Origin: Synechococcus sp. C9
GTDB lineage: Bacteria; Cyanobacteriota; Cyanobacteriia; Gloeomargaritales; Gloeomargaritaceae
Length of the DNA stretch: 64,000 nt
Reading direction: 5' to 3'
NCBI RefSeq assembly: GCF_022984075.1
Contig: NZ_JALAAD010000002.1
Coordinates: forward strand, 1 to 64,000
Position 1 is the first letter of the stretch. The number at the start of each line of letters is the position of its first letter. Below, piece after piece: positions 11,152 to 54,055 of the stretch. The notes beneath the pieces were generated by a model. That model was not told the DNA's origin, made no database searches, and saw nothing but the letters and a program-made list of their open reading frames with translations. The position numbers were made by a program, and so were the translations under genes.

Positions 11152-11396
11152 CCTCTGTTCAGCAACGCCGTAAAAACCTTTCTTTTGGGGGTTCGTCATC
11201 AGCAAGCATTATCACTACTTCAAGTTTATGGCTCTGAGCAGTGGGAAGAAGCTCGCAGAAATTACGCGGTTTCAGTTACTAATTGTTGCTAGCCAGAAAT
11301 CAAAATTTGTCCATGATTCCTATAACCTTGCCCGATGGTCAGGCGATTCAGCTTTCGTCAGGTGGTCAAAATATTTTAATTAATTTTCTGCGTACA

Positions 11397-11950
11397 TCTA
11401 GGAGCAGGAACCTGGGGTATATAAGGTTATCGTGTCTAGGAAAGGAGCAAGAACACATAACCATCTTATTAGCGTTTCCTAGACAGGGGCGACTAATGGA
11501 TAATCACTCTAGGCAATCACCCTCTTTATTTATATCTAGGAGCAGGAACCTGGGGTATATAAGGTTATCGTGTCTAGGAAAGGAGCAAGAACACATAACC
11601 ATCTTATTAGCGTTTCCTAGACAGGGGCGACTAATGGATAATCACTCTAGGCAATCACCCTCTTTATTTATATCTAGGAGCAGGAACCTGGGGTATATAA
11701 GGCTATCGTGTCTAGGAAAGGAGCAAGAACACATAACCATCTTATTAGCGTTTCCTAGACAGGGGCGACTAATGGATAATCACTTTAGGCAATCACCCTC
11801 TTTATTTATATCTAGGAGCAGGAACCTGGGGTATATAAGGTTATCGTGTCTAGGAAAGGAGCAAGAACACATAACCATCTTATTAGCGTTTCCTAGACAG
11901 GGGCGACTAATGGATAATCACTCTAGGCAATCACCCTCTTTATTTATATC
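11397..11950 (+). repeat. 138-bp tandem repeat array, four units plus start of a fifth
   Basis: Units begin TCTAGGAGCAGG at 11397, 11535, 11673, 11811 and 11949, exactly 138 bp apart and nearly identical. Because 138 is divisible by three, a frame from 11283 stays open through all units (46 codons each). Each unit holds the inverted pair GTGTCTAGGAAA and TTTCCTAGACAG. The fifth unit is split by MITE-B2 after its first TCTA. A second short array lies at 16374-16550. Confidence 0.9.
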
Positions 11951-12053
11951 TATAGCCAGGTAGGTTAAGGTTGTCGCCTTAAGATTCTGGGAAACCAATG
12001 TGGGGCTACGCCCAGCGACCCATATCATGCCAACCTTTGCCTGCTTAGCTATA
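11951..12053 (+). repeat. MITE-B copy 2 inserted in the 138-bp array
   Basis: It is nearly identical to 2011-2113. It sits inside the sequence TCTAGGAGCAGG of the fifth 138-bp unit, which reads TCTA, then the element, then TAGGAGCAGG, so the TA target duplication is plain. Confidence 0.85.
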
Positions 12054-23389: not shown

Positions 23390-23989
23390 ATGAAAGTCAT
23401 CACCGTCACAGGCTTCAAAGGGGGCTGTGGCAAATCCACCACCGCCATCAACCTGGCGACGTTCTTGAGCGAGCGGGGCAAAGTCCTGCTGGTGGATGGG
23501 GACCCCAACCGTACCGCCCTCAGTTGGAGCCAACGGGGAGCCTTGCCCTATCGGGTGGCGGATGAGCGGCAGAGCTTCAAGTGGGTGGCAGGCAATGACT
23601 TTTTGGTGATTGATACCCCGGCACGCCCGGACTCCAGCGACCTACAGGAACTTGCCAAGGGCTGTGACCTGCTGATTTTACCCACCCTGCCCGATGTGGT
23701 TTCCCTGGAACCGATGCTGGCGACCGCCCAGGCGTTGGGGGAAGCTACCTACCGAGTTTTGCTCACCATTGTGCCCCCGCCCCCCAGTCGAGAGGGTCAA
23801 CAGATGCAGACCGACTTGCAGGCATCCGGCATTCCCGTATTCCAGACCATGATTCGTCGGGCGGCGGGGTTTGGCAAGGCGGCTCTCGCTGGGGTTTCCA
23901 TCCGAGAGATGACCGGGCGTGACCGGCTCCCCTGGCAAGACTATCAAGCGTTAGGTAAAGAAATTCTGGAGGTACTGGCAGATGGCTAA
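23390..23989 (+). CDS. parA: ParA-family partition ATPase, locus 1
   Basis: The 199-residue protein has the deviant Walker A KGGCGKST (residues 10-17), a Walker A' region VLLVDGDPNRTA, and a Walker B DFLVIDTPARP. It lacks an N-terminal DNA-binding domain, so it is of the short type Ib class (ParF-like). Such ATPases segregate plasmids with a small centromere-binding partner. That partner overlaps its stop by eight bases. Repeats upstream suggest autoregulation by the partner. Confidence 0.9.
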   Translation: MKVITVTGFKGGCGKSTTAINLATFLSERGKVLLVDGDPNRTALSWSQRGALPYRVADERQSFKWVAGNDFLVIDTPARPDSSDLQELAKGCDLLILPTLPDVVSLEPMLATAQALGEATYRVLLTIVPPPPSREGQQMQTDLQASGIPVFQTMIRRAAGFGKAALAGVSIREMTGRDRLPWQDYQALGKEILEVLADG

Positions 23990-24530
23990 GTATGGGGACT
24001 TAATCCGCAAGGCGAGGGCAAGCACGGGCGGGACGGAGGAGATAGAAACTAGAAAAATGGAATCTAGTTTAGAAGATGTCAGTAATCAAGATTCTTCAAT
24101 AACAGATTCTAATAAACATCAAACAAGCATCTTAGATTCAAGCAAAACAGATTCATTTATAATAGATTCTAGTAAACAAGATTCTTTGATGCTAGATTCT
24201 GTAAAACAAGAAGCAAGTATCACAGATTCAAGTAAACTAGACTCATCTAAAGTAGATTCTATAAAACAGGATGCCAGTATGATAGATTCTGGTAAACAAG
24301 ATGCTTATGCCAAGGTGGCGATGCGCTTGAGTGCGGAAGCGGTGCAAAGGTTGAAGCGGTGGCGGTTACAGACGGGGTTGCCCTACGAAATTCTGGTGGA
24401 TGTGCTCATCCGGGGGCAGGATACCCCCACCCCAGCCCAGGTGGAGGAAGCTCGCAAAATCCGCCACTCCCGGTTGTTGGAGGGAAAGCGCAAGGCTTTG
24501 GACAATTCTCAGAGAAAACTTGACCAGTAG
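23982..24530 (+). CDS. ParB/ParG-like partner with coding-sequence iterons, locus 1
   Basis: The 182-residue protein has a short basic start, a low-complexity segment (about residues 30-107) of five-residue repeats such as DSSKQ and DSIKQ, then a ribbon-helix-helix-like domain (YAKVAMRLSAEAVQRLKRWR) and a charged tail. Position after parA and the RHH-like domain point to the centromere-binding adaptor. The low-complexity codons also make an exact 15-bp DNA repeat that matches the sequence upstream of parA. So the gene probably encodes both the binding protein and its binding sites. Role inferred, repeats directly seen. Confidence 0.7.
   Translation: MAKYGDLIRKARASTGGTEEIETRKMESSLEDVSNQDSSITDSNKHQTSILDSSKTDSFIIDSSKQDSLMLDSVKQEASITDSSKLDSSKVDSIKQDASMIDSGKQDAYAKVAMRLSAEAVQRLKRWRLQTGLPYEILVDVLIRGQDTPTPAQVEEARKIRHSRLLEGKRKALDNSQRKLDQ
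24074..24304 (+). repeat. 15-bp phased array inside the partner gene, locus 1
   Basis: AGATTC occurs exactly at 24089, 24104, 24134, 24149, 24164, 24179, 24194, 24224, 24254 and 24284, with one-mismatch forms at 24239 and 24299, all on one 15-bp grid. Longer units of the type AGATTCTAGTAAAC begin every 30 bp (24104 to 24284, seven in a row). 30 bp is close to three helical turns. Confidence 0.9.
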
Positions 24531-24579: not shown

Positions 24580-24939
24580 TCAGTTGCTTCTAATCCTGAA
24601 TTTATTGGGTTCGATGATGACGATTGCGCCAAGGATTTCCGATACATCAACCTGGTCAAGAAACTGTTCCAGGGCTAGGTAAATTTCAGTGGCAACTGCT
24701 CTAAACGGCATTCTCAGTATCACCAGTCCGCAATGGGTGTTTGGCGGATAGGTCAATATATTCGCCCAACCAAGGTCACGACTAATAATAATGCACTGTT
24801 CTTTTTGGGCAGATATGAATAAATCCCTATCTTTTAGACCACTTAATCCTGATATTTTAACATAAATTGCTGAATGGCCTTTATCGATAAGTAACCTTGC
24901 TAAACTGAGGGGACAATCTTCATCGACTAGAAATTTCAA
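24580..24939 (-). CDS. DUF5615 PIN-like toxin
   Basis: The 119-residue protein begins KFLVDEDCPLSLARLLIDKG, with IIISRDLGWANILTYPP in the middle, the signature of DUF5615 PIN-like proteins. It overlaps the upstream DUF433 antitoxin gene by four bases. The usual RNase motif Asp residues are present. A TA pair directly downstream of par locus 1 would aid plasmid stability. Confidence 0.8.
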   Translation of the reverse strand: MKFLVDEDCPLSLARLLIDKGHSAIYVKISGLSGLKDRDLFISAQKEQCIIISRDLGWANILTYPPNTHCGLVILRMPFRAVATEIYLALEQFLDQVDVSEILGAIVIIEPNKFRIRSN

Positions 24940-25187
24940 CTAGCTTGCTCCATCCTCAGGAGTTCACCACAATAAGCCAGTGCATCCAGAATTTGTTGAT
25001 GGGTGATGCCGTATTCGTGCATAACTTCTTCATAGGTCATGCCACCGGCGAGCGAGCCAATGACGACAGCGACAGACAGACGAGTACCTTTGATGACCGC
25101 TTGACCATGTTGGATGTGACTATCCACAACAATCTGGTTTGTTTTACCATCCATAGCATTGCTTATTTGGTGCCACGATAACCTCAT
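24936..25187 (-). CDS. DUF433 antitoxin
   Basis: The start at 25187 has AAGGA five bases before it; an internal ATG at 25154 (MDGKTNQ) has no such site. The core reads QAVIKGTRLSVAVVIGSLAGG then YEEVMHEYGITHQQILDALA, the DUF433 HTH-like domain. It pairs with the DUF5615 gene. Its upstream DNA is the orphan octamer array, and its Shine-Dalgarno sits beside that array, so the pair may now be driven by a former parA promoter. Confidence 0.8.
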   Translation of the reverse strand: MRLSWHQISNAMDGKTNQIVVDSHIQHGQAVIKGTRLSVAVVIGSLAGGMTYEEVMHEYGITHQQILDALAYCGELLRMEQAS

Positions 25188-25192
25188 TGTAT

Positions 25193-25248
25193 TCCTTCAC
25201 TCGGCATGATGAATATTTGCACTTTTGCGTACTCGTTAACTGTCTAGG
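25193..25248. promoter_or_regulatory. Orphan copy of the parA2 upstream octamer array
   Basis: Seven octamers in register read TCCTTCAC, TCGGCATG, ATGAATAT, TTGCACTT, TTGCGTAC, TCGTTAAC, TGTCTAGG. They align with the region upstream of parA2 (53942-53997), same orientation, and homology continues to GGGCAGAC. No parA follows; the DUF433 gene is there instead. Confidence 0.7.
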
Positions 25249-25414
25249 AATGGGCAGACTAGTGAGCGATGCACCTAAGGGGAAATGCTACAAAGCTGGA
25301 GATTGGGTACTGCACTTGGGGGAAGTAGGTTGGTTTTTGGGGATGTTTGGTCGGGAGCTAATCTGGGTAGAGCGATGGGTGTCGGGGTGTTTAACCGTAA
25401 TTCCATGTGTATGG

Positions 25415-25525
25415 TAATTTCAAACAAATTTGCGACATTCGCCTTTACCTGCAAACCTTGTCCTAGAAGGGGATACAGTGATTACCAGTGCCTCAAAGTG
25501 TTGCATTTTCTTGTGAAACGACTAT
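25415..25525. repeat. MITE-E copy 1 (IS630-derived)
   Basis: TAATTTCAAACAAATTTGCG at one end and TTGTGAAACGACTATA at the other match the IS630 remnant at 15008 and the inverted copy at 38590-38706. About 111 bp, no ORF. Around it (25249-25682) no gene is supported except the out-of-frame helicase tail at 25622-25717. Confidence 0.75.
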
Positions 25526-25682
25526 ATTTCACCGACTTTTTGCGGTGCGGAACCCCTTGGATTTATCCATGAGGAGTGCCGTTCTTGACCCAGTGCGCGA
25601 TAAAAACCTACTGTTAGCCTTTTAACTATGGAAATCCTGTATGAGTCTATCAATTCGTTGTAGCTGTGCTCCGTTGAGCCGT

Positions 25683-50745: not shown

Positions 50746-50861
50746 GTGGTTTATCAAATCGAACCCGCCGCACTGTCCCTGCTACGCACCTTCGGTACCC
50801 GCTCTGAAAGACCTATACAACGGTGATGGCTCTCTATTGGTGTCTAGGAAAAGGTTACCTG

Positions 50862-50990
50862 TGATGTTCTAGGAAAGGGCAAGTAACAGAGAACTGTTCC
50901 AATAGTCTTTCCTAGACATGAAGTATGGTTAACTAGCGATGAGCAAGGGTGATGGTTCTTGATTAGTGTCTAGGAAAAGGCTATCTGCGG
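50862..50990. repeat. Cluster of TGTCTAGGAAA words
   Basis: TGTCTAGGAAAAGG near 50861 and 50968, TTCTAGGAAAGG near 50888 and the inverse TTTCCTAGACA near 50919 lie within 130 bases. The same word pair is in each 138-bp unit at 11397-11950. The region 50746-51002 has no gene. Confidence 0.55.
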
Positions 50991-52672: not shown

Positions 52673-53323
52673 CTATTCCCTGGTGAGCCAGCCTTCGAGC
52701 AACTCTTGCATCAGCGTGGAAAAGTCACCCCCGTCCTGTGCCAACAAGCGCATTTTGACCCGCCGGTAGGTCTCCTTGCGGATGTAAGCCGTCACTTGCT
52801 CATAAGCCGGGTCAGAACGTTTCCCCCTTTTCGCTCTCCCGCCACCCGGTACATCCGAGTTGTCAGCTACCCGATAAACCGGACTTTCATCTTTTTGCGT
52901 ACTCGCCTTGTTCCACTTTTGAGTTTCCATACTGTCAGATATTTGCGTATCTGAACTTTCAGAAGGTTGACTACTCCCGTTGTCAGATGTTTGCAATGTT
53001 GAACTTTTGCGTATTTGCTCTTTCACCCCATCAGATATTTGCATATCTGAACGTTCAGCAGGTTGACTACTTGCATTGTCATCTGTCTGCAATGTCGGAC
53101 TTGTGTATATTTGCGTTTTCACCCCATCAGATGTTTGCGTACTCGAATGTTCGTCATGCCGTATATCTGGACTTTTGCCCTTTCGCCTACTCGCCTTGCT
53201 GTATTGTTGCGTTGTCGCACCTTTGGATGTTTGAGTTGGTGCATCTTCAACAGGGGCAATGTCTCCATCTCCTGGAGATTGTGGATGCTCTGAGGTCTCA
53301 AACAGTTTCCCAAACCGGCTCAT
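52673..53323 (-). CDS. ParB/ParG-like partner with coding-sequence octamer array, locus 2
   Basis: The 216-residue protein overlaps the parA2 stop by four bases. Residues about 23-155 are low complexity with an eight-residue period (for example TQTSDGVK, TQIYTSPT, LQTDDNAS, SQPAERSD). The last ~50 residues (AYEQVTAYIRKETYRRVKMR, then LMQELLEGWL) fit a ribbon-helix-helix domain, as in ParG-type centromere binders. The low-complexity codons create a strict 8-bp DNA repeat identical in phase and words to the sequence upstream of parA2. ParG of TP228 binds ACTC boxes spaced by 8 bp, a useful parallel. Role inferred. Confidence 0.7.
   Translation of the reverse strand: MSRFGKLFETSEHPQSPGDGDIAPVEDAPTQTSKGATTQQYSKASRRKGKSPDIRHDEHSSTQTSDGVKTQIYTSPTLQTDDNASSQPAERSDMQISDGVKEQIRKSSTLQTSDNGSSQPSESSDTQISDSMETQKWNKASTQKDESPVYRVADNSDVPGGGRAKRGKRSDPAYEQVTAYIRKETYRRVKMRLLAQDGGDFSTLMQELLEGWLTRE
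52855..53254. repeat. 8-bp phased array inside the partner gene, locus 2
   Basis: On the + strand, TTGC words occur at 52895, 52943, 52991, 53007, 53015, 53039, 53071, 53111, 53135, 53175 and 53207, all equal modulo 8. Split into octamers, the 400 bases give 50 units, of which by my count 46 begin YYR (TTG, TCG, TCA, CTG, CCG). Recurrent octamers include TTGCGTAC, TTGCGTAT, TCAGATAT, CTGAACTT and TTGACTAC. Confidence 0.85.
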
Positions 53324-53913
53324 AGGTTAATCTCCTTCATCAGTTGTTGATAGTCCCACCAGGCGTTGATGGCATTCCCATCCGCCACGTCGCATACCAG
53401 ACAGCCCTCTAATCCCGCCTTCTGAAAGGCAACGTAGCGGCGGATGACTTGTTCAAAAACTGGTATTTTTTGTCTTTTGAGGGTTTGCTGGGCTTCGGCT
53501 CCCGCTTGGCTGGGATAGGGGGGCACCACCGTCAGCAAGACTTTGTAGCGTTCCGTCGCCAGTTGTCGCAGGGTGGTGATGGTCATCAGCAGGGCATCCA
53601 GAGCCAAGGCATCGGGGGTGGTTGGCAGAATCAACAGGTCGCATCCTTCGCTCAGGTCTTTTAATTCTTCCATTGAGGGACGTGCCGGGGTATCAATCAC
53701 AATATATTCGTGTTCGCGCATTCGTTTGGGAGCTTGATTCTCCGTCACGACCAAGAAGGGGAGTTGTCCCCGTTGCGCCCAACGCAGGGCGGAACGGTTT
53801 GGGTCCCCATCCACAAGCAAGGTTTTGCCGCGCCGATGCAGTAGCCCCGCCAGGTGGATGGCTGTGGTGGTCTTGCCGACGCCACCCTTGAAACCCGCTA
53901 GCGTGATAATCAT
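53320..53913 (-). CDS. parA: ParA-family partition ATPase, locus 2
   Basis: The 197-residue protein has the deviant Walker A KGGVGKTTT (residues 9-17), TLLVDGDPNRSALRW and the Walker B EYIVIDTPARPS. Like the locus 1 protein it has no N-terminal HTH and is of type Ib. The two ParAs share the same plan but differ along their length, so they are separate partition systems, possibly from two fused plasmids. The partner gene follows with a four-base overlap. Confidence 0.9.
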   Translation of the reverse strand: MIITLAGFKGGVGKTTTAIHLAGLLHRRGKTLLVDGDPNRSALRWAQRGQLPFLVVTENQAPKRMREHEYIVIDTPARPSMEELKDLSEGCDLLILPTTPDALALDALLMTITTLRQLATERYKVLLTVVPPYPSQAGAEAQQTLKRQKIPVFEQVIRRYVAFQKAGLEGCLVCDVADGNAINAWWDYQQLMKEINL

Positions 53914-53933
53914 GCCGTTATGTTACCAAATAT

Positions 53934-53997
53934 TTGCGTATGGAAAAACTCAGCATGATGAGTACCTGAACTTTTGCGTACTCGTTAACTGTTCTAG
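53934..53997. promoter_or_regulatory. parA2 upstream octamer array
   Basis: From 53934 the sequence divides into TTGCGTAT, GGAAAAAC, TCAGCATG, ATGAGTAC, CTGAACTT, TTGCGTAC, TCGTTAAC, TGTTCTAG. Four of these octamers, or near matches, recur inside the partner gene and all lie in one 8-bp register. It is 21 bases from the parA2 start. Likely operator and possible centromere; binding is inferred. Confidence 0.65.
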
Positions 53998-54055
53998 TGT
54001 GGGCAGACCGGTAGTGGGGTAGGAGACTCTTGTTGTTAGAGATAATGGTGGTCAG

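Follow-up and report, generated by a model that had tools for sequence, protein, structure and literature searches.

A 64-bp segment of the DNA upstream of the partition gene parA2, with part of its octamer array, is found a second time about 28 kb away, immediately upstream of a putative toxin-antitoxin (TA) pair of the DUF433-DUF5615 type. This orphan copy retains the 8-bp register of the array and its conserved core motif, and it meets the TA module at a sharp junction. Judging from its sequence, the partner protein ParB2 probably still binds the orphan, and a regulatory capture of the TA pair is plausible. We favor the interpretation of the orphan as an outlying ParB2 operator that would put the DUF433-DUF5615 pair under the control of a partition protein, and regard the chance that it is right as about even.

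The plasmid and its two partition loci

The window, i.e. the whole stretch of 64,000 bases analyzed here, is the start of contig C2 (86,895 bp), one of the four contigs of a cyanobacterial genome of 2.96 Mb. C2 is regarded as a plasmid because of its length and the par loci on it. Its partition features are the following:

23390-24530, plus strand: parA1-parB1 (locus 1)
53913-52673, minus strand: parA2-parB2 (locus 2)
53320-53913, minus strand: parA2, encoding a Walker-type ParA ATPase (CbiA, 5e-14; CbiA/AAA_31 in Pfam)
53917-53989, minus strand: array of in-register octamers upstream of parA2, the putative operator/centromere
52673-53323, minus strand: parB2, encoding a putative RHH centromere-binding partner whose C-terminal domain is homologous to the products of ParA-locus partner genes
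52839-53239, minus strand: about 50 in-register octamers within the coding part of parB2 (z=42 for period 8 in a comparison with shuffled codons)

Locus 2 shows two hallmarks of type Ib partition, namely a Walker-type ParA and an array of short direct repeats upstream of parA. ParA2 is 52% identical to ParA1, and it matches the NF041546 ParA_partition model with 3.5e-27, under the cut-off of that model. Searches of ParB2 against Pfam and NCBIfam yielded no match. A profile of 15 ParB2 homologues found a RHH CopG-family protein as its best match in the PDB (E 0.0064), and the AlphaFold2 model of the partner has a coil-helix-helix arrangement (pLDDT 84), which suggests that ParB2 is likely to belong to the RHH proteins. 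Foldseek returned no significant match for the 56-aa partner monomer, with RHH antitoxins among the weak ones, and this monomer is too small for the comparison to be informative.

The internal array of parB2 spans nucleotides 85-480 of the gene in a single register that runs across the codon frame, an apparent centromere encoded inside the gene of its own putative binding protein. Intragenic octamers are also present in plasmid5 of Aulosira laxa NIES-50 (L169) and in a plasmid of Tolypothrix PCC 7910 (L170), with z of about 20, and were not seen in most relatives. The parB1 coding sequence has internal repeats as well (24081-24306), with a period of 15 (z=14), an array type unlike that of locus 2. 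Elsewhere in the window, tandem repeats of 138 bp (11396-11952; 4.0 copies, 99% matches) carry the inverted motifs TGTCTAGGAAA...TTTCCTAGACA, and related motifs occur at 50840-50980, with a piece, TCTAGGAANGGGCA, in the flank of the orphan.

A copied block joined to a TA module

The features around the orphan are the following:

24580-24939, minus strand: DUF5615 gene, PIN-like putative toxin (PF18480, 9.9e-17)
24936-25187, minus strand: DUF433 gene, VapB10-like putative antitoxin (PF04255, 2.8e-17)
25197-25202, minus strand: junction GAGTGA between the copied block and the TA module, from the alignment with the TA flank of genome G004
25199-25262, minus strand: copied block, homologous to 53948-54014 upstream of parA2 (BLAST and extended alignment)
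25201-25240, minus strand: five in-register octamers, GTTAACGA GTACGCAA AAGTGCAA ATATTCAT CATGCCGA, from the register and a matrix of the intragenic octamers
25226-25234, minus strand: core motif GAGTACGCA, which is conserved ahead of parA genes that have AYIR-type partners
25241-25262, minus strand: homologous distal flank outside the array, about 20 bp (GTCTGCCCA..CTAG)

In a BLAST search against the window and its own genome, 25199-25259 aligned with 53948-54008 at 85% identity (E 9.8e-12), and the orphan and the parA2 upstream region are the only two places in the 2.96 Mb at which the block is present. The octamers upstream of parA2 that correspond to those of the orphan are GTTAACGA GTACGCAA AAGTTCAG GTACTCAT CATGCTGA, and both the 8-bp register and the strand relative to the downstream gene are the same in the two arrays. 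The initial annotation counted seven octamers in register; the register is confirmed, and the count has to be lowered to the five that form the common array. The octamer at 25241-25248 lies in the homologous flank, contains a 1-bp indel and does not fit the array matrix. The one at 25193-25200 is not homologous to the parA2 array and is assigned to the TA module, because the G004 copy of this TA pair aligns over it. The approximately 20 further homologous bases noticed earlier are indeed there, as the distal flank aligns with the parA2 side up to 25262. It is also correct that parA is missing downstream; on the same strand, DUF433 comes next and then DUF5615. A piece of the orphan flank, TCTAGGAANGGGCA, recurs at 50868; a dispersed repeat as the carrier of the block was considered and rejected, the rest of the block being absent there. 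A repeat that is dispersed (about 117 bp, with about 35 further copies, mostly chromosomal) is located at 25410-25526, 150 bp beyond the orphan, and resembles a miniature mobile element.

The DUF433 and DUF5615 genes are convergent to locus 1 and overlap by 4 bp, and both Pfam scores are above the cut-off. Their arrangement is that of a VapBC-type TA system of the PIN-COG2442 (DUF433) kind, putative as judged from the genes. The same pair is found in a genome of the same genus, G004, on a single contig of 3.0 Mb near a psaC-like reading frame; the toxin gene of that locus (L045) is frameshifted by a 4-base deletion, and the plasmid copy is intact. Coding-type conservation between the two pairs starts only at codon 12 of the DUF433 frame, which makes the ATG at 25154 the probable start of the antitoxin. 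Measured from this codon, the octamers of the orphan are 47-86 bp upstream, and the matching octamers of parA2 are 35-76 bp upstream of their gene.

The locus of G004, the only TA homologue that can be aligned at the nucleotide level, delimits the copied block. The homology of the two TA loci starts at GAG(T/C)GAAGG, precisely where the homology to the parA2 region stops, and upstream of this point they are unrelated (P=0.84). Since the array and the TA homologies meet at one point, upstream of which G004 has unrelated DNA, the region is a chimeric joint rather than a decayed par locus. The junction reads CTGAGT on the parA2 side and ATGAGC in G004, hence a microhomology joint at TGAG/GAGT accounts for the chimera. 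The earlier proposal that the TA pair had taken the place of parA is unsupported, as the pair is an independent module that is also present in G004, and nothing specific speaks for a scar of plasmid fusion, the junction resembling a short microhomology joint. The initial annotation had named, as an observation that would count against it, a relative with the same TA pair behind an unrelated upstream region and with equal expression; the DNA half of this observation is what G004 provides.

The orphan as a probable binding site and arrays in relatives

The core GAGTACGCA was found upstream of parA at all six loci whose partner has an AYIR strand (locus 2 of the window and L013, L060, L062, L172 and L173), which are not fully independent because the par loci of pSYSM and pSYSX from Synechocystis PCC 6803, both in this group, are nearly identical, and at none of the 23 other loci, most of which have TTAATC-type octamers instead. 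The partner strand, AYIR or GAYIP, predicts whether the array motif is GAGTACGCA or of the TTAATC type. From this correlation we infer that GAGTACGCA is the recognition motif of the ParB2 family, and it is possible that the correlation represents a recognition code for cyanobacterial plasmid partition. On the plasmid, the four occurrences of the core are in the orphan, upstream of parA2 and, twice, in parB2. The same four places are matched in the whole genome by ACGAGTACGCAAA with at most one mismatch; as reversed ACGAGTACGCAAA, used as a control, likewise gave four chance matches, the evidence rests on the locations and not on the count. The core is absent from all 28 other DUF433 homologue loci examined, and a search for the TA pair in a plasmid collection found none. 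The exact 23-base core pattern had no match in the 84,980 genomes scanned, and the parA2 upstream array, compared at the DNA level with 194 related genomes, had one weak match of 32 bases and nothing more. One match in a scan of viral contigs (L058) was attributed to chance, the surrounding DNA being otherwise unlike the plasmid.

A scoring matrix was built from the octamers inside parB2, to which neither upstream copy contributed; with it, the orphan scores 16.1, as against 8.9 for the parA2 copy. Outside parB2, the orphan is the sole 40-bp window on the 86.9-kb plasmid that reaches at least 16.1; chance maxima over an 87-kb plasmid go up to 17 (null with six octamers), a caveat softened by the position of the orphan having been fixed in advance by homology. 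If the ancestor was like the parA2 copy, five random substitutions would score this high with P=0.005; with the orphan as the ancestor and the parA2 copy changed, the test gives no support (P=0.56). The identical run of 23 bases, considered as a signal of selection through its clustering, was not significant (P=0.06-0.19). Where the orphan departs from the parA2 copy, the changes do not have the appearance of decay.

The latter point bears on the alternative that survives best, in which the block would be an inert scar, carried along by rearrangement or plasmid fusion and perhaps touched by ParB2 without consequence, while the TA pair would use a promoter of its own. The microhomology at the junction and the 15% divergence from the parA2 copy are in line with such a history, and the presence of two par loci on one plasmid is compatible with fusion. 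The own promoter would include TACAAT at 25186-25191, an element conserved in G004 and thus common to both genomes; a scan of the orphan segment for consensus promoters found none. The array part, however, is undegraded relative to the family motif and even outscores the parA2 copy, and we consider an inert scar rather unlikely, albeit to be taken seriously. TACAAT is a candidate -10 element also if the orphan acts as an operator, in which case the array would sit at about -22 to -61.

Arrays of period 8 upstream of parA are general in cyanobacterial relatives (z above 10 in several loci), where several of them are grouped around each par locus, and they exhibit no consistent association with TA operons. 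A total of 73 of the 76 arrays called in relatives are within 5 kb of parA, a count limited by some contigs being short. Arrays far from par loci in G235, G140 and G147 are likely due to chance, two being within coding sequence and one AT-rich. The array at 50949 in G340 was rejected as a second, independent orphan, being within the repeated par region of a gapped contig; at about 50.9 kb of this contig (C10, L128), an RHH-like partner gene and a DUF4258 gene flank an octamer array, and another array adjoins a possibly toxin-like gene. In several relatives an array is found inside the parA coding sequence (G084 C45, 11149; G312 C667, 27439-27539; G235 C39, 39351). A model-free scan for period 8 was dropped, swamped by runs of N and coding repeats.

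The grouping of several arrays at each par locus lends some credit to the possibility that the orphan is a second, distant centromere, i.e. a place where a further ParB2 nucleoprotein complex would assist segregation or the pairing of plasmids, and which would be located at the TA pair incidentally. With five repeats in a row, the orphan also surpasses the four that pSM19035 requires (PMC9499535). Nonetheless, this is unlikely, because nearly all arrays called in relatives stay near parA, and parB2 already contains about 50 octamers, to which five more at a distance of 28.7 kb would contribute little. That the block serves ParA1-ParB1 is highly improbable: the genes of locus 1 are only 0.7 kb away and arrays of relatives are often directly downstream of parB, but the block is homologous to the DNA upstream of parA2 and not of parA1, the repeats in parB1 have a period of 15 rather than 8, and the presumed strand of ParB1 is unlike the AYIR type.

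A proposed control of the TA pair by a partition protein

The outlying ParB2 operator is favored because RHH partition proteins bind short repeats and control the promoters that these overlap. Their binding to contiguous repeats is cooperative, and in pSM19035 full stimulation of ParA needs at least four of them (PMC9499535); the orphan has five. In that plasmid the RHH ParB protein omega has parS sites that overlap the promoters of omega, delta and copS (PMC9499535), and it regulates the epsilon-zeta TA genes in an omega-epsilon-zeta operon (PMC4803016). Here, as there, contiguous short repeats precede both a TA pair and parA on one plasmid. On the other hand, the repeats are 8-bp octamers instead of heptads, the TA family is unrelated, the putative site is a copied fragment, and the regulator gene, which in omega-epsilon-zeta is part of the TA operon, is 28 kb away from the TA pair.

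Similarities to TP228 ParF-ParG-parH include a ParA with a small partner of the RHH type (putative in our case) and degenerate short boxes upstream of parA, which in TP228 are both centromere and parFG operator, ParG repressing parFG; the parts of that account on which we draw (PMC7308502) make no mention of a distant copy beside a TA operon, and the partner gene of the window differs in harboring about 50 further octamers. Synechocystis pSYSM and pSYSX (NC_005229, NC_005232) are similar in sequence, with a ParA 57% identical, a small RHH-like partner with the nearly identical strand AYIRKETYR, and GAGTACGCA, there in the reading TGCGTACTC, ahead of parA; unlike ParB2, their partner is short, and its gene has no intragenic array. 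As for the TA pair, Synechocystis VapBC10 (PIN-COG2442/DUF433) likewise combines in one operon a DUF433 antitoxin and a PIN-fold toxin, but its antitoxin activates its own promoter via an upstream inverted repeat (PMC3834315), whereas here the par array fills the upstream region, so that self-control of this kind would be replaced.

What makes regulatory capture plausible is that the block directly adjoins the 5' end of the TA pair, where G004 has unrelated DNA, and that its distance to the gene start resembles that of the parA2 array. We infer ParB2 binding, the position of the promoter and the direction of regulation, and propose the following scenario. A 64-bp piece of the parA2 operator/centromere region would have been copied or rearranged to the 5' side of a mobile TA module and joined to it at 3-4 bp of microhomology (GAGT). 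ParB2 would bind the five contiguous octamers cooperatively via the intact core, over the expected -35 region of the antitoxin gene, and would set TA transcription, most likely by repression, in place of antitoxin autoregulation. The TA pair would thereby be tied to the level of the partition protein, like epsilon-zeta to omega on pSM19035. It is tantalizing, though doubtful, to consider that a fall of ParB2 upon failed segregation or a drop in copy number changes TA expression, which would make segregation and post-segregational killing a single circuit in this cyanobacterium.

If ParB2 binds the orphan, the plasmid would exemplify independently what is known of pSM19035, where one repeat-binding partition protein governs addiction as well as segregation. 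Here this would have come about with a different TA family and through the copying of 64 bp of DNA. It would also mean that centromere arrays can relocate and serve anew as operators. Finally, the correlation between the AYIR strand and GAGTACGCA offers a protein-DNA code that can be put to the test in the partition systems of cyanobacterial plasmids, on which there has been little work, including the laboratory plasmids pSYSM and pSYSX.
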